Assembly: GCF_006088715.1 (NCBI RefSeq)
Contig: NZ_CP030772.1
Coordinates: forward strand, 682,001 to 746,000
DNA from: Streptomyces sp. YIM 121038
GTDB lineage: Bacteria > Actinomycetota > Actinomycetes > Streptomycetales > Streptomycetaceae
DNA length: 64,000 bases
Direction of reading: 5' to 3'
Shown here piece by piece: positions 28,231-43,265 of this stretch. How positions within the stretch are numbered: the stretch's first letter is position 1; every line of letters starts with the position of its first letter. Below the pieces are notes generated by a model. That model saw only the letters and a program-made list of their open reading frames with translations. It was not told where the DNA came from and did not search any database. A program made the position numbers and the translations under genes.

Positions 28231-28424
28231 GGACCCCGTTGCGCAATTGATCTCACGCGGCGAAGTTGAGGTGTCCCCGGGAGTGTGGCCACAGGGGTTC
28301 ATGCTGCGAGTGTGAGTCTATGGACTCGCTGGTGTTGTTGTTCGAACTCGAAGACCGTGAAGTTCCACCTGTTGCTTGGGTGCCTGGATACGGGGACATG
28401 TGAGCCCAGGGAAAGCAGTGCCGG

Positions 28425-28724
28425 GTGGGAAGTAAGTACACGGAGCGGTACACCGCGGAGTCCAAAGGGGATGCGATCGCGCTCGTCGGCTCCACGGGCC
28501 GCACGGTCGCCGAGGTCGCCCGGGAGGTCGGGGTCAGCCCGGAGTCGCTGCGCGGCTGGTACAAGCAGGCCAAGACCGACCGCGGTGAAGGCCGCCCCGG
28601 CGAGCTCAGTACGGCGGAGCGCGAGGAGCTCAAGCGGCTGCGCAGGCTCGCTGCCGAGCAGGCCAAGACGATCGAGGTACTGCGAAAAGCCGCGGTCTTC
28701 TTCGCGAAGGAGAGCGACCGGTGA
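28425..28724 (+). CDS. IS3 OrfA (copy 1)
   Basis: A 99-aa HTH protein: SKYTERYTAESKGDAIALV, TVAEVAREVGVSPESLRGWYKQAKTD (helix-turn-helix) and a leucine-zipper-like RLRRLAAEQAKTIEVLRKAAVFFAKESDR. It overlaps OrfB by 4 bp (GTGA), the usual arrangement for frameshift-coupled IS3 transposases. Intact. Confidence 0.88.
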   Translation: MGSKYTERYTAESKGDAIALVGSTGRTVAEVAREVGVSPESLRGWYKQAKTDRGEGRPGELSTAEREELKRLRRLAAEQAKTIEVLRKAAVFFAKESDR

Positions 28725-29614
28725 ACGACACGTTCGCGTTCATCGAGGCGGGGAAGACCATCCATGGCATCGCTTTCCTGTGCCGGCTGCTGAGTGTGGC
28801 CCGCTCCTCACTTCTACGCCTGGCAGGCCGCCGCGAAGGCCCGGGCCGCCCGGAAAGCGGCCGACGAGGCCCTCGCGCACGAGATCACCGTGCTGCACAC
28901 CGTCTCCAGGGGCACCTACGGTGCCCCACGCGTCCACGCCGAACTCCGACGCCTGGGCAGGCGAGTGAACCGCAAGCGGATCGAGCGCATCATGCGTGAG
29001 CGCGGCATCAGCGGCGTGACCCGCCGCAGGCGCCGGAACCTGACCCGGCAGGTGAAGAAGGCCGTGCCCGCACGCGCCCTGCCCGGCCGCGACTTCACCG
29101 CGCACACGCCAGGCACCGAGCCGGTCGGCGACGTCACCCACATCCCCACCGCCGAGGGCCGGCTCTCCCTCGCGACCTGGCTGGACCCGGCCACCCACGA
29201 GACAGCCGGCTACTCGATGGCCGACCACCATCGCGCCGGCCTGGTCGTCGACGCGCTGATGACGGCCGCTGGCCGTGGCCCTCTGAAACCCGGCTGCATC
29301 GCACATTCGGACCGCGGCAGCGAACACCTCGGGTGAACTGCGCCGCGACATAGGCAAGTTGAACCTGAGGCAGAGCGTGGGAAGAACGGGCTCCTGTTAC
29401 GATAACGCCGCGGCCGAGAGCCTTTTTCGCCGTGCTGAAAGAGGAGATCAACACCCGTATCTGGCCCGACCGGGCCACCGCGAGAGCGGAGATCTCCTCC
29501 CTCGCCGAGACCTTCTGCAACCGCCGACGCCTGCGCAAGCATCCGCAGCGGGGCTGTCCCACCCCGCTCGAGACGCGTCAGCGCCACGAACAAACTCACA
29601 CCCTCACAGCGTAA
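28721..29614 (+). pseudogene. IS3 OrfB (copy 1), three frame breaks
   Basis: Pieces in three frames give FLCRLLSVARSS, AHEITVLHTVSRGTYGAPRVHAELRRLGRRVNRKRIERIMRERGISGVTRRRRR, VGDVTHIPTAEGRLSLATWLDPATHE (first Asp), GCIAHSDRGSE (second Asp), SVGRTGSCYDNAAAES (Glu) and RIWPDRATARAEISSLAETFCNRRRLRKHP. Breaks are near 28795, 29330 and 29425, and the other copy of this element carries the same ones. Confidence 0.88.
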
Positions 29615-29685
29615 CGACCGACTGTCCAGTCGCGGTGGAACTCCAGGGGCTGCTCGATGGATCGCCCACTGCCGACGCCAGCTAG

Positions 29686-35853: not shown

Positions 35854-37485
35854 TCATGCTCCGCCCCGCTGCTTGCGTGCCGCGAAGTCGGTGAGGGTAA
35901 GTTCCCACTGCACACGCCCGAAGTCTGGCCAGAGCACGTCGGTGAACTGGAGTTCCGCTTCGGCCGCTTGCCACAGCATGAACCCCGACAGGCGCCGCTC
36001 ACCGGAGGTACGCACCACCAACTCGACCGGTGGCTGACCGGCCGTGGCTAGGGACGCCTCGAACTGCTCACGGGTGGGGCCGTCCCATCCGGCGCATGCC
36101 TGCGCTGCCTGGAGGATGTCCCAGGTGCCGTTGTAGGAGCACGCCAGGTTCACCACCATGCCTCCCACCTGCGCGGTACGGATGCGGGCGTCCTCCAGCA
36201 CCTTTGTAAAGGGCTGCGGGAGCAGTGACAGGTCACCGATCGGGACCAAGCGGTACCGGGCCGAGGATGCCAGGGTTTCCACCGCTTGGCGGGTGTACTC
36301 CAGTGCCGCTTCGACCTGCTCGGGTGGGCGCTTGGCCACGTTGTCTGGCGAGGACAGCCACAGGGTCACCACCTCTACCCCCGCCTCGGCGCACCAGCTC
36401 AGCACCGGCGCGAAGCGGGCAGCGCCCTGACACAGGCCCTCGGCCATGGAAACACCGCGAGCGCGCGCCCAGCGCCGGTTACCGTCGGGGACGAACGCCA
36501 CGTGCCGAGGCACCCGCCTAGCGCCTGGCCGAGCGTAACCACTGTCATAGGCCGAGTGGGCCCCGCTGTCCGAGTAACGCGCAGTGCCCAGGCGCAGCCA
36601 CTCATAGGCACCCCGCGGCAGGTCCCGCATCGCCTGCACATGGAAGGAAAGCGCGGCGGCCCCAGGTGCATCCAGAGTTGCGGCCAGTGCCGGCAGACGC
36701 TGCTCCAGATAGAGGAACCGCTGCCCGGCGTCGCGGACCATACAGCGGACGTCGCCGATCGCCTGTTCACGAGTGCAGCCGGTAGTGGCCTCCAGCACGG
36801 TGACCATGTTGCGTACCTCGCCCCGGACCCGCTCGCTCTCCAGCGAAAACAGGTCATTGAGCAGGGCGAACATCCGGAAAGACTCCTCCTCCAAGTCCCG
36901 AACTACTGCGGAGTTGCGGGCCGACTTGGGCAGCTCGTAGTGCCCCACCCGTTCGTTGAGGTCCAAAAACACCGGCAGGCCGACGTTAGCGCGCCGCCAT
37001 TCCAGATAGTCCGCCGGGGACAGCAAGTGCTGCTCGCCCAGGTTCGTCTGCCACATGCGCGTCAGGTCCCGGCGGGCGCGGACACGCCATTGGAGCGACA
37101 TACCCGCGCCCAGGGTCGGCCACAGCGAGCACCACGCCGCACCGACCGCCGTGCGCGCCTTCGTCAGTTCTGGGGCGTCGTCGATCAGGAGATCCAGCAA
37201 GTCCTCGAGGATGTCCCGGGCGCTCTCCGTAGCGCTGTCGGCCTGGTCGTCGACCAGCAGGCCGAACGCAATCATCAGGGCCGCCAGCTCCAGGTGCCGC
37301 CCCCTGGCTCCCGGATAAGTCAGGGCCGCGCACAGTCCCGTACGCATGGACGCGAAGTATCCGGCCTGGTCGGCACCGAGGAGCAGACCCTCCTCCTCCA
37401 GCCACGCCACCACCGCGTCATCGGCCTGCTGCGCGCCCGGAGCACGGCGTACGGGGAAGGGGATGTCCACACGCTCATACGGCAT
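35854..37485 (-). CDS. terpene synthase - cis-prenyltransferase fusion protein
   Basis: A 543-aa two-domain protein. Residues about 1-310 are a class I terpene synthase: DDQAD at 79-83 (DDxxD, Mg2+), the Arg pair in LEWRRANVG near 164 (diphosphate sensor about 46 residues before the next motif), NDLFSLESE at 210-218 (NDxxSxxxE) and WLRLGTARY ending at 304 (RY pair). Residues about 325-543 are a UppS-type cis-prenyltransferase: AFVPDGNRRWARARG (catalytic Asp), VVTLWLSSPDNVAKRP, RTSGERRLSGFMLWQ (diphosphate-binding Arg/Ser) and AEAELQFTDVLWPDF. The His of the usual GHxxG loop is replaced (EGLCQGA), hinting at a short or unusual product. ATG follows GGGAGGCCACCA and overlaps the upstream gene by 11 bp. 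All catalytic motifs of both domains look intact. Confidence 0.88.
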   Translation of the reverse strand: MPYERVDIPFPVRRAPGAQQADDAVVAWLEEEGLLLGADQAGYFASMRTGLCAALTYPGARGRHLELAALMIAFGLLVDDQADSATESARDILEDLLDLLIDDAPELTKARTAVGAAWCSLWPTLGAGMSLQWRVRARRDLTRMWQTNLGEQHLLSPADYLEWRRANVGLPVFLDLNERVGHYELPKSARNSAVVRDLEEESFRMFALLNDLFSLESERVRGEVRNMVTVLEATTGCTREQAIGDVRCMVRDAGQRFLYLEQRLPALAATLDAPGAAALSFHVQAMRDLPRGAYEWLRLGTARYSDSGAHSAYDSGYARPGARRVPRHVAFVPDGNRRWARARGVSMAEGLCQGAARFAPVLSWCAEAGVEVVTLWLSSPDNVAKRPPEQVEAALEYTRQAVETLASSARYRLVPIGDLSLLPQPFTKVLEDARIRTAQVGGMVVNLACSYNGTWDILQAAQACAGWDGPTREQFEASLATAGQPPVELVVRTSGERRLSGFMLWQAAEAELQFTDVLWPDFGRVQWELTLTDFAARKQRGGA

Positions 37486-38548
37486 TGGTGGCCTCCCAAG
37501 CACTTGCGCCCGGGATCGCCAAATCGGTGAGGGTCCGCAGCGCATCCTTGGCGTCAGGCTGGAACGGCGCCGTATCCAGCACATCCAGCGCCTGCCGTCG
37601 GCGGGCGCCGACCATCGCACGCACGATGGCCGGCGCACCGGAGTCGGTGATCAACTCACGCGCTTCCCTTACGCCGTCCTCGTCCAGCCCGCCGTCCGCC
37701 ACCAGATTCCGCAGACGACAGGCGTTGCGCTCTCCAGCGTGGCGCAGAGCCAACGCCAGCACTACCGTGTGCTTGCCATCCCGCAGGTCCGCGCCGCTAG
37801 CCTTTCCCCCGTCCACGTCCTCCAAGTCGTCGTACATCTGGAACGCCTCGCCCAGCGGGTGGGCAAAGGCGCGGCATGCTTCCAACACGGCACCGCCAGC
37901 GCCGGCCAGCGCCGCGCCGATCTGCAACGGTCTCTCCACCGTGTACTTCGTCGTCTTGTAGTGGATCGTCCGCAGCGCGCCCTCCACGCTCCCGAAGTCC
38001 TCGCCGCAGGAGTTGAGGTCGAGCAGTTGGCCGAGGACAACCTCGCTGCGCATGCGGTCGATCACCCCGCGGACCGTGTCGGGTGCGGCTCCCTCCGGCG
38101 CCCCCAGTAGCTCCGCGGACCACGCTTCGCACAGGTCGCCCAGCAGGATCGCCGACCCCTGCCCGAACCAGTCGACACGCGGCACGGAGCTGCGCGCACC
38201 GAAGTCACGGTGCACAGTGGGCCGGCCGTGGCGAGTGTCGGAGCCATCGATCAGATCGTCATGGATGAGCACGTAAGCGTGGAACAACTCCAGGCCGGCG
38301 GCTGCGCGCAGCACAGACCGCTCCAAAGGTCCGGTTGCGACAGCCAGCCAGCCCAAACAGCAGAGCAGTGGGCGCAGTCGCTTACCCCCGCCGTCCAGGA
38401 AGTTGCCCAGCACTTGCAGTGGGATTCCCAGCAGCTGGCCGTCCCCCGCGCGTTCCTTGTGCTCTAAGAAGGTCCGCAGGAACGCCTCGACCTCGCGACG
38501 GATGGCGTGCAGGTCGGTACGGGCATCACCGGTACTTCCGACATTCAT
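37475..38548 (-). CDS. trans-isoprenyl diphosphate synthase (polyprenyl synthetase family)
   Basis: A 357-aa all-alpha prenyl chain-elongating enzyme making GPP, FPP or GGPP. GGGKRLRP (residues 53-60) binds IPP; the first Asp-rich motif is HDDLIDGSDTRHGRP (DDLID 97-101) and the second YDDLEDVDG (DDLED 240-244); YKTTKYTVERPLQIG holds the KT/T block. Tyr at the fifth position before the first motif and no large insertion favour a C15-C20 product, but this is weak. It is the first gene of a two-gene unit and shares 11 bp with the terpene synthase fusion, so the proteins are made together. ATG 38548 is followed upstream by about 270 bp that should hold the promoter. Confidence 0.93.
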   Translation of the reverse strand: MNVGSTGDARTDLHAIRREVEAFLRTFLEHKERAGDGQLLGIPLQVLGNFLDGGGKRLRPLLCCLGWLAVATGPLERSVLRAAAGLELFHAYVLIHDDLIDGSDTRHGRPTVHRDFGARSSVPRVDWFGQGSAILLGDLCEAWSAELLGAPEGAAPDTVRGVIDRMRSEVVLGQLLDLNSCGEDFGSVEGALRTIHYKTTKYTVERPLQIGAALAGAGGAVLEACRAFAHPLGEAFQMYDDLEDVDGGKASGADLRDGKHTVVLALALRHAGERNACRLRNLVADGGLDEDGVREARELITDSGAPAIVRAMVGARRRQALDVLDTAPFQPDAKDALRTLTDLAIPGASAWEATNAV

Positions 38549-40745: not shown

Positions 40746-41571
40746 CACACCGTGGCTTGAACGGGTGTGGTGCTGGTCGTGGCCGGTCCAGTGGGCGTCG
40801 AGCCGGATGATGTTGAGCGCGGTAGCGGAGAAGGTGTGTTGGAGGCGGACTTTCGGCAGGCCGCGGTAGCGGGCCCGACGAATTCCGGTGATGTCGAGGG
40901 CCTGGTTGGTGGTTCCCTCGACGCCGACGCGGAGGGCGTACTCGTTCTTCCAGGTGTCGGTCTTCTGCTCGGCACGGGCCCGGGCGAGGTTCTCGTGGAG
41001 TTCCTCGGGTCGCAGGGTCAGCATGCGGCGCCCGAGTCTCGAGGTGGTGCACTCCTGCTGGAAGGGGCAGTCACAGCAGGTCAGGACGCTGAAGGCGATC
41101 ACGATGGCGTCGGTGCCGTGCTGTGTGACGGGGTTCCAGTGGGAGCTGGTTTTCCCGGCGGGGCAGCGGACCTGCCTGGTCTTCCAGTTGATGGTGAAGG
41201 CGGTTTTGTCGAAGCCGTCGGCGCCCTTGGCCCGCGCGGAGTGGTCCAGGAGGACCGGGGTGACCATACGGATGCCGTTCTTCATGGCCTTGGTGATCAA
41301 GTCGGCCGACGGGTAGGCGGAGTCGAGGTAGTGCTCGGCCGGTTTCAGGCCGTGCTTCGCGAGGCTCTGCTGGACGGGGGCGGTGGCCTTCACGTCGGGC
41401 ACGGTTGCGTCAGTGGTGTGCACGTCGGTGATCAGATTCGGCATCTTCCCGGCTCCGGCGTCGGGGAGAGTGCCGCACGTTTCGCTGAGATGGATCTTGT
41501 AGCCCATCCAGAACAGGTCCTCGCCCTTGGCCGCCCAGCGTGCGTCCGCGTCGTAGGGGGAGGCCAGACGG
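40746..41571 (-). pseudogene. IS1182-family transposase, C-terminal half
   Basis: LASPYDADARWAAKGEDLFWMGYKIHLSETC, LITDVHTTDATVPDVKATAPVQQSLAKHGLKPAEHYLDSAYPSADLI (second Asp in LDSAY), VRCPAGKTSSHW and CPFQQECTTSRLGRRMLTLRPEELHENLARARAEQKTDTWKNEYALRVGVEGTTNQAL (Glu) with RRARYRGLPKVRLQHTFSATALNIIRLDAHW. The first half is replaced by IS3 copy 2, whose end joins it in frame. Confidence 0.88.
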
Positions 41572-41602
41572 TGGAGTTCCACCGCGACTGGACAGTCGGT
41601 CG

Positions 41603-42496
41603 TTACGCTGTGAGGGTGTGAGTTTGTTCGTGGCGCTGACGCGTCTCGAGCGGGGTGGGACAGCCCCGCTGCGGATGCTTGCGCAGGCGTCGGCGGTTGC
41701 AGAAGGTCTCGGCGAGGGAGGAGATCTCCGCTCTCGCGGTGGCCCGGTCGGGCCAGATACGGGTGTTGATCTCCTCTTTCAGCACGGCGAAAAAGGCTCT
41801 CGGCCGCGGCGTTATCGTAACAGGAGCCCGTTCTTCCCACGCTCTGCCTCAGGTTCAACTTGCCTATGTCGCGGCGCAGTTCACCCGAGGTGTTCGCTGC
41901 CGCGGTCCGAATGTGCGATGCAGCCGGGTTTCAGAGGGCCACGGCCAGCGGCCGTCATCAGCGCGTCGACGACCAGGCCGGCGCGATGGTGGTCGGCCAT
42001 CGAGTAGCCGGCTGTCTCGTGGGTGGCCGGGTCCAGCCAGGTCGCGAGGGAGAGCCGGCCCTCGGCGGTGGGGATGTGGGTGACGTCGCCGACCGGCTCG
42101 GTGCCTGGCGTGTGCGCGGTGAAGTCGCGGCCGGGCAGGGCGCGTGCGGGCACGGCCTTCTTCACCTGCCGGGTCAGGTTCCGGCGCCTGCGGCGGGTCA
42201 CGCCGCTGATGCCGCGCTCACGCATGATGCGCTCGATCCGCTTGCGGTTCACTCGCCTGCCCAGGCGTCGGAGTTCGGCGTGGACGCGTGGGGCACCGTA
42301 GGTGCCCCTGGAGACGGTGTGCAGCACGGTGATCTCGTGCGCGAGGGCCTCGTCGGCCGCTTTCCGGGCGGCCCGGGCCTTCGCGGCGGCCTGCCAGGCG
42401 TAGAAGTGAGGAGCGGGCCACACTCAGCAGCCGGCACAGGAAAGCGATGCCATGGATGGTCTTCCCCGCCTCGATGAACGCGAACGTGTCGTTCAC
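41603..42496 (-). pseudogene. IS3 OrfB (copy 2), same three frame breaks
   Basis: Same protein pieces and breaks as copy 1, with Asp in GDVTHI, Asp in HSDRGSE and Glu in NAAAES. It cannot make a functional transposase as read. Confidence 0.88.
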
Positions 42497-42792
42497 CGGT
42501 CGCTCTCCTTCGCGAAGAAGACCGCGGCTTTTCGCAGTACCTCGATCGTCTTGGCCTGCTCGGCAGCGAGCCTGCGCAGCCGCTTGAGCTCCTCGCGCTC
42601 CGCCGTACTGAGCTCGCCGGGGCGGCCTTCACCGCGGTCGGTCTTGGCCTGCTTGTACCAGCCGCGCAGCGACTCCGGGCTGACCCCGACCTCCCGGGCG
42701 ACCTCGGCGACCGTGCGGCCCGTGGAGCCGACGAGCGCGATCGCATCCCCTTTGGACTCCGCGGTGTACCGCTCCGTGTACTTACTTCCCAC
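42493..42792 (-). CDS. IS3 OrfA (copy 2)
   Basis: Identical 99-aa HTH/zipper protein to copy 1, overlapping OrfB by 4 bp. Confidence 0.88.
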   Translation of the reverse strand: MGSKYTERYTAESKGDAIALVGSTGRTVAEVAREVGVSPESLRGWYKQAKTDRGEGRPGELSTAEREELKRLRRLAAEQAKTIEVLRKAAVFFAKESDR

Positions 42793-42859
42793 CCGGCACT
42801 GCTTTCCCTGGGCTCACATGTCCCCGTATCCAGGCACCCAAGCAACAGGTGGAACTTCA

Positions 42860-43265
42860 CCACCCCCTCATCCAGAAGGTAAGAGCGATCAGCATCCACG
42901 GCCAGCCCAGCAGGGAAAACCCCAGCTCAGCCAGTCACTCAAAACGAGCCGGACCCGTTTGAAATGGTGGGGGGATGCAAGCGAAGCATCAGTTACCGCG
43001 CCAGCCGCCGACTTTACCAATCCGTGATGGACCCGAGTGCGCAGGAGCGCTCTTTTGAATGCCCCCGCCCCTATATACGCGCCGCGCTCACTCCCCCCAG
43101 TGAACTTCGTGTCAAGTGCATAGACCAATGCTTGGTGTGCACGTTGCACTGGCGGGGCCTCACGAGCGGTGCGGTGCTGACGCCGAAGTGCCCAGCACAC
43201 CCGTTCTTTCGCCGTGGTGCGGTGTCGGTAGACGCCGCAGGGACTGCTGCAGAAGGGAAGCTGTG
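42860..43265. other. no supported gene
   Basis: Between IS3 copy 2 and the next gene. A minus-strand segment could encode a hydrophobic stretch (LLGWPWMLIALTFWMRGW) but has no start or ribosome site. Confidence 0.3.

Follow-up and report, generated by a model that had tools for sequence, protein, structure and literature searches.

A rare fusion of a class I terpene synthase and a cis-prenyltransferase in Streptomyces and Amycolatopsis

Introduction

The window analysed here, a 64,000-nucleotide stretch of the Streptomyces sp. YIM 121038 contig NZ_CP030772.1, encodes a 543-residue polypeptide (P0001) in which a complete class I terpene synthase (TS) is joined to a complete cis-prenyltransferase (cis-PT). 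This fusion is real and rare, with three such proteins known here: P0001 itself, P0002 from Amycolatopsis and one from G097, another genome of the genus of the window. As far as their sequences allow us to predict, a separate trans-prenyltransferase (trans-PT) would make geranyl or farnesyl diphosphate (GPP or FPP), the cis-PT half would add one Z unit head to tail to that product and the TS half would cyclise the resulting Z product, a route that we consider probable. We also lean, if only slightly, towards viewing all three proteins as "cis-chimeric" TSs, in which a cis-PT hands a Z substrate to a class I cyclase of the same chain and which would represent, in fused form, a TS/cis-PT partnership of scattered occurrence, found in 11 of 392 genus genomes, in S. 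clavuligerus and on a Rhizobium plasmid.

In tests of bacterial TSs, the substrates commonly come from trans-PTs, and some of these enzymes prove inactive. If the cis-chimeric reading is true, screens based on all-E GPP, FPP or GGPP would miss Z-derived terpenes. Examples of how bacterial TSs are tested include co-expression with an FPP, GGPP or GFPP synthase (PMC12298776) and the use of C15-C30 prenyl diphosphates starting with E,E-FPP (PMC11234867). Where a cyclase and a cis-PT are covalently linked, a hint of the substrate is already given by the genome, and the question is open to direct test. The TS-paired cis-PT clade described below could, if the reading is true, mark terpene clusters needing Z substrates.

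One gene, two complete halves

The fusion gene is on the minus strand, which the earlier note on this DNA had not specified, and runs from an ATG at 37485-37483 to a stop at 35856-35854 with no internal stop (Table 1), bearing out the claim of that note that one unbroken frame carries both enzymes. The domain search that it had proposed places two Pfam families above their curated cut-offs, namely Terpene_syn_C_2 (PF19086) at residues 71-253 (E 1.5e-29, 103.6 bits against a cut-off of 23.7) and the cis-type Prenyltransf (PF01255) at residues 332-541 (E 2e-52, 178.3 bits against a cut-off of 27), and every motif that it had named was located in P0001. Both halves are complete. PF00348 has no match in P0001 in a Pfam search up to E 1 and sits in the next gene, the trans-PT, which is separate from, upstream of and overlapping with the fusion gene, just as had been noticed.

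The two halves meet in a linker, whose counterpart in the aligned stand-alone TS relatives is their C-terminal tail. In an AlphaFold2 model (mean pLDDT 88.6), P0001 folds into two well-ordered domains, joined weakly at residues 320-322; with a pTM of 0.64, the mutual orientation of the halves is not set by the model.

Table 1. Features of the terpene locus, in positions of the window
Feature	Positions	Strand	Basis or remark
TS/cis-PT fusion gene P0001, 543 aa	35854..37485	-	ORF, Pfam
TS half, residues 1-318	36532..37485	-	
Asp-rich motif DDQAD, residues 79-83	37237..37251	-	motif alignment
YLEWRRANVG, residues 160-169, with putative diphosphate-sensor Arg	36979..37008	-	motif alignment
NSE motif NDLFSLESE, residues 210-218	36832..36858	-	motif alignment
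RY pair, residues 303-304	36574..36579	-	motif alignment
Linker, residues about 305-326	36508..36573	-	low pLDDT at 320-322; alignments
cis-PT half, residues 323-543	35857..36519	-	PF01255; Foldseek matches 8wu7, UPPS, Rv1086
PDGNRRWA, residues 333-340	36466..36489	-	alignment
EGLCQGA, residues 349-355, altered GHxxG loop	36421..36441	-	alignment
RTSGERRLSGF, residues 492-502	35980..36012	-	alignment
C-terminal RXG motif as RGG, residues 540-542	35860..35868	-	sequence
RBS-like GGGAGG, 6 nt before fusion ATG, within trans-PT gene	37492..37497	-	
trans-PT gene, 357 aa, PF00348	37475..38548	-	Pfam; 11-nt overlap with fusion gene
DDLID, first Asp-rich motif of trans-PT	38246-38260	-	
Left arm, perfect 1296-nt inverted repeat	28357..29652	.	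transposase frame 28794-29336 (+)
Right arm, perfect 1296-nt inverted repeat	41565..42860	.	transposase frame 41881-42423 (-)

Distribution of the fusion

The earlier note had also suggested looking for other proteins with the same domain order, and two were found. Among 5.8 billion proteins, with scoring of the 8000 candidates sharing most words, there was one other full-length relative, P0002 from Amycolatopsis sp. NPDC088138 (544 aa, 73% identity), with both Pfam domains. The G097 fusion (L029:8706-10388, 560 aa, 49% identity) is likewise full-length with the same domain order, and there an IPP isomerase gene lies ahead of the trans-PT and fusion genes. That an assembly or sequencing artefact joined two genes is almost inconceivable, given that the same join recurs in both of these genomes, in proteins 73% and 49% identical to P0001; nothing was found in favour of such an artefact.

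Within the genus, the fusion occurs in 2 of 392 genomes, the window's own included. It was found only in the window's own genome in the class and family samples (394 genomes each) and in none of the 346 genomes of an Actinokineospora-family sample at 1e-55, a set without positive control; the three samples overlap, and 3 or 4 candidates were scored per genome. A search with the TS half matched P0001 and P0002 only, and a profile built from the three TS halves brought in five more TSs, all stand-alone, from Streptomyces, Kitasatospora and Uniformispora (41-43%). In the open-access PMC literature, represented mostly by titles and the openings of abstracts, we found no description of a TS/cis-PT fusion, and the domain order of P0001 was found nowhere described for a bifunctional TS.

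The terpene synthase half

P0001 has the sequence and fold hallmarks of a class I TS, namely a DDxxD motif, an NSE motif, an RY pair and the alpha-domain fold, together with an Arg in YLEWRRANVG that we take to be the diphosphate sensor. Its VIA-align match list is filled by TS matches and silent on the cis-PT half. The best NCBIfam models for the TS half are isoafricanol and pentalenene synthase, both below cut-off; these two enzymes use all-E FPP as substrate.

The canonical motifs (DDQAD, NSE, RRANVG and RY) are kept in two of the three known fusions, those of the window and Amycolatopsis, whose TS halves are 69% identical. The G097 fusion has eroded motifs (NDQVH at the Asp-rich site, HDVFSVERE for NSE), and the five stand-alone relatives have NDLCD (one of five) or NDLVG or NNLVG (four of five) at the Asp-rich site, so that perhaps not every member of this lineage is an active cyclase. 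Such erosion speaks for a reading in which the TS half is weak or dead and binds, stabilises or passes on the prenyl diphosphate of the cis-PT half, which would be the real enzyme. We regard this as unlikely for P0001, since the window and Amycolatopsis proteins, at 69% identity between their TS halves, keep the complete motif set. In our motif table, several cis-PT-paired TSs show odd Asp-rich motifs yet a recognisable NSE.

The TS tree joins G097 to the stand-alone proteins (94/92), a single fused clade not being rejected (AU p 0.088). The sequence SGYEDAP, or a near variant of it, is where stand-alone TS proteins end or which they run through, and it opens the linker of the G097 fusion. Our tentative reading is that the fusion came first and that the cis-PT was lost in one branch, where the Asp-rich motif decayed; a search for a cis-PT remnant downstream of the G181 stand-alone TS (E up to 1) found none.

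The cis-prenyltransferase half

The catalytic residues of cis-PTs are the Asp, Asn and Arg of DGNRR, SxxN..R, RTSGExRxS and a Glu. The eleven aligned catalytic positions of the cis-PT half, whose roles we assume from work on UPPS, are the same as in the genome's own canonical-looking UppS: PDGNRRWA presumably supplies the catalytic Asp and Asn, and we take RTSGERRLSGF to form the IPP site. FTDVLWPDF follows at residues 514-522, and the chain ends in the C-terminal RXG motif described for the family (PMC8131916). Profile, fold, catalytic positions and RXG motif thus all place this half in the UPPS family, and Foldseek matches it to 8wu7 (E 3.3e-13) and to UPPS 1x08 (rmsd 1.6). A housekeeping UppS identity for the cis-PT half was considered and rejected: a canonical-looking UppS and a second UppS (L005, L003) are encoded elsewhere in the genome.

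The earlier note had suggested a cis or an irregular, lavandulyl-like diphosphate and had taken the altered GHxxG loop to fit a short or irregular product. The His of that loop is indeed replaced in P0001 (EGLCQGA), but the loop is not diagnostic of product: Rv1086, a regular enzyme, has Tyr in place of this His, and so do 28 of the 54 cis-PT rows labelled as having no TS neighbour. The irregular product itself finds no support in the diagnostic residue, since lavandulyl diphosphate synthase (LPPS) has His-78 at the position of UPPS Asn-28 and its H78N variant abolishes lavandulyl diphosphate formation (PMC7839719), and P0001 has Asn there. The top solved relatives by sequence, 8wu7 (147 bits) and Rv1086 (145 bits), are regular enzymes by title or paper, the latter a Z,E-FPP synthase that uses GPP (PMC6214179), and the cyclolavandulyl synthase 5gul scores only 59 bits. 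It is very unlikely, then, that the cis-PT half joins two allylic substrates into an irregular, branched diphosphate, although, besides the altered loop, zFPS keeps the Asn and yet gives lavandulyl diphosphate without IPP (PMC7839719), and lavandulyl synthase 5hc8 is among the Foldseek matches (rank 35), as is UPPS. The better guess from these comparisons is that the product would be regular, head-to-tail and short.

How short is the least secure part of the reading, and residue counts say little on it. Leu occupies the presumed chain-length position in both P0001 and Rv1086 (C15), and 8wu7 (C25 by title) has Ala. Among the TS-labelled rows of our cis-PT alignment (n=17), this position is Leu in 5, Pro in 5, Ala in 4, Met in 2 and Ser in 1, and it is Met in 30 of 54 other rows, with no clean split between the two sets. 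The Leu shared with Rv1086 is, as a sign of a Z-FPP synthase type, only suggestive.

The trans-prenyltransferase and the flanks

At the fifth residue ahead of the first Asp-rich motif, the trans-PT has Tyr in the window and in G181, Phe in G097 and Ala in G146; a large residue here usually goes with shorter products, with exceptions reported (PMC6214179). The NCBIfam matches of the window's trans-PT include a mycobacterial FPP/GPP synthase model, at 204 bits, below its cut-off of 600. Taking together the trans-PT Tyr, the cis-PT Leu and the sesquiterpene-like TS half, our guess at the substrate of the cyclase would be (2Z,6E)-FPP as first choice and 2Z-GGPP as second.

The terpene genes are bracketed by the two arms of a perfect inverted repeat (Table 1), 11.9 kb apart and each with a transposase frame, an arrangement resembling a composite transposon. 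The locus is an island that may therefore have arrived as a composite element. A scan of neighbouring frames in the window turned up no tailoring gene.

Unfused partners

The partnership behind the fusion is at least partly known. On the S. clavuligerus plasmid record CP065237 (L014), a cis-PT gene is followed after 30 nt by a TS gene and then by a convergent P450 gene. The cis-PT matches PDB 8wu7 at 300 of 300 residues, an entry entitled "Structure of a cis-Geranylfarnesyl Diphosphate Synthase from Streptomyces clavuligerus". G146 (L030) has a row of IDI, GPP-methyltransferase-like, trans-PT, TS and cis-PT genes, the last 48 nt downstream of the TS gene on the same strand; its methyltransferase is of the GPP 2-C-methyltransferase kind (239 bits against a cut-off of 400), and the row may be a route to C-methylated Z-terpenes. 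Two further unfused places lie in the window's own genome (cis-PT, SDR and TS at L048; P450, cis-PT and TS at L049), and the class sample gave another in G1107 (L142). Outside actinobacteria, a cis-PT is followed by a TS annotated as hypothetical on Rhizobium etli plasmid pRetMIM1e (L055, 4947-7188). Among the plasmid neighbourhoods, a TS adjoins two of the seven cis-PT matches opened (H5, H17, H18, H19, H22, H25 and H29), those of S. clavuligerus and Rhizobium etli; a TS profile search of H22, which is unannotated, found no TS.

To extend this to the genus, a profile (A5) of seven TS-neighbour cis-PTs was run with up to 7 candidates scored per genome; it has a match in 390 of 392 genomes at 1e-68 and at least two matches in 50. 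Extra cis-PT loci, 54 in all, were fetched from 47 multi-copy genomes not yet examined, and three of them (L091, L094 and L095) group with the common second UppS. A TS frame lies within flanks of about 4 kb at 8 of the 54, at distances from overlap to 1.4 kb, and the genomes of these eight, with G000, G097 and G146, make up the 11 of 392 genus genomes with TS/cis-PT neighbours or a fusion. As a control, no TS was found within 1.5 kb of the common second UppS at 26 loci; at this matched flank a TS accompanies 6 of 54 extra copies against 0 of 26 (one-sided Fisher p 0.086), so the neighbour control is weak by itself. With some six TS genes seen in the window's 11.1 Mb genome, a rough estimate is that well under 1% of random genes would have a TS within 1.5 kb.

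Several of these loci have features of their own. L090, L093 and L096 each have one cis-PT and two TSs, and the TS adjoining the cis-PT is without the usual DDxxD (VERYFDG or VERYFDE instead); in L090 the genes stand in a row with a KshA-like Rieske oxygenase between the two TS genes, and in the TS-paired row of L096 the cis-PT frame is interrupted. Tailoring genes recur, as a Rieske oxygenase in L090 and L102 and a P450 in L092. Elsewhere (L133 in G204; L054 in NBC_01456), a trans-PT stands beside a cis-PT with no TS found, and L054 also has radical SAM and phosphomannomutase-like genes.

A cis-prenyltransferase clade paired with terpene synthases

The cis-PT tree has 72 rows, 17 of them labelled as having a TS beside or fused. 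The three fused cis-PTs group together (100/95), with the G146 cis-PT as their sister (100/99), and these belong with 8wu7 of S. clavuligerus to a 13-row clade (95/89) in which 11 rows are TS-paired or fused, one is without TS (L109) and one is not known (P0004); 6 of the 17 TS-labelled rows fall outside it. The TS label changes 6 times on the tree against 15.4 in shuffles, none of 500 shuffles being as low, figures to be read with the tree program's warning of long branches and with a 42-row clade without TS that consists partly of near copies.

This clade bears on whether the two halves of P0001 work together at all. The TS half might instead use the E,E-FPP or GPP of the trans-PT, the cis-PT having an unrelated job (e.g. 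making a Z-prenyl lipid precursor) and the fusion only coupling expression, for which the sub-threshold isoafricanol and pentalenene synthase matches and the overlap between the trans-PT and fusion genes could be invoked. This is rather unlikely, since the genome already has its two other UppS and since the cis-PT half sits in a mostly TS-paired clade, one member of which is titled a cis-GFPP synthase. The reading of the earlier note in which a cis diphosphate is made and cyclised on one protein thus gains indirect backing from sequence (catalytic positions, RXG, the TS-paired clade and 8wu7), which does not extend to its irregular product.

Comparison with known systems

TS and prenyltransferase also share one polypeptide in the fungal chimeric TSs (PTTS, e.g. 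fusicoccadiene synthase), which are likewise TS-first, their prenyltransferase being of the trans type, alpha-helical and with Asp-rich motifs. In P0001, by contrast, the prenyltransferase has the unrelated cis-PT fold, the trans-PT is in a separate gene and the fused PF00348 domain of PTTS is missing. The statement of the earlier note that described bifunctional TSs use a trans-PT agrees with the literature, so far as excerpts of it go; but pairing with a cis-PT is not confined to the fusion, for the genus has repeated cases of neighbouring, unfused TS and cis-PT genes. Fusions of a cis-PT behind another prenyl-diphosphate-using domain also exist, SQS_PSY (PF00494) being the partner in 9 of the 21 matches listed (P0009-P0011 and P0014-P0019; the named ones are actinobacterial). 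These differ in that the partner (in P0009, P0014 etc.) is PF00494, not a TS, and two tested cis-PTs of this kind group with canonical UppS.

Class II cyclases pair with partners of cis-PT fold to make tuberculosinol and kolavelool. They resemble P0001 in working with a partner of the cis-PT family (PMC8131916, PMC6214179). The difference is one of order: a class II cyclase leaves the diphosphate in place and comes first, whereas the class I cyclase of P0001 would release it, so that the cis-PT would have to act before it. A relay from trans-PT to cis-PT operates in M. tuberculosis, where Rv0989c makes GPP and the short-chain cis-PT Rv1086 turns it into Z,E-FPP (PMC6214179), but these enzymes are unfused and their product goes to a long-chain lipid carrier, not to a cyclase. 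In the tomato CPT/TPS cluster (NDPS1 with TPS19 and TPS20; CPT2, TPS21 and CYP71BN1), a cis-PT does feed an adjoining TS (PMC4364678), although these are plant enzymes encoded by separate genes, with neryl and nerylneryl diphosphate as substrates. Within bacteria, S. clavuligerus (8wu7/8ylz with the TS of L014) offers a cis-PT of the same 13-row clade as P0001 with a TS gene adjoining it; there, the genes are separate and in the order cis-PT then TS, the TS is only distantly related (29%) and the product is, by title, C25.
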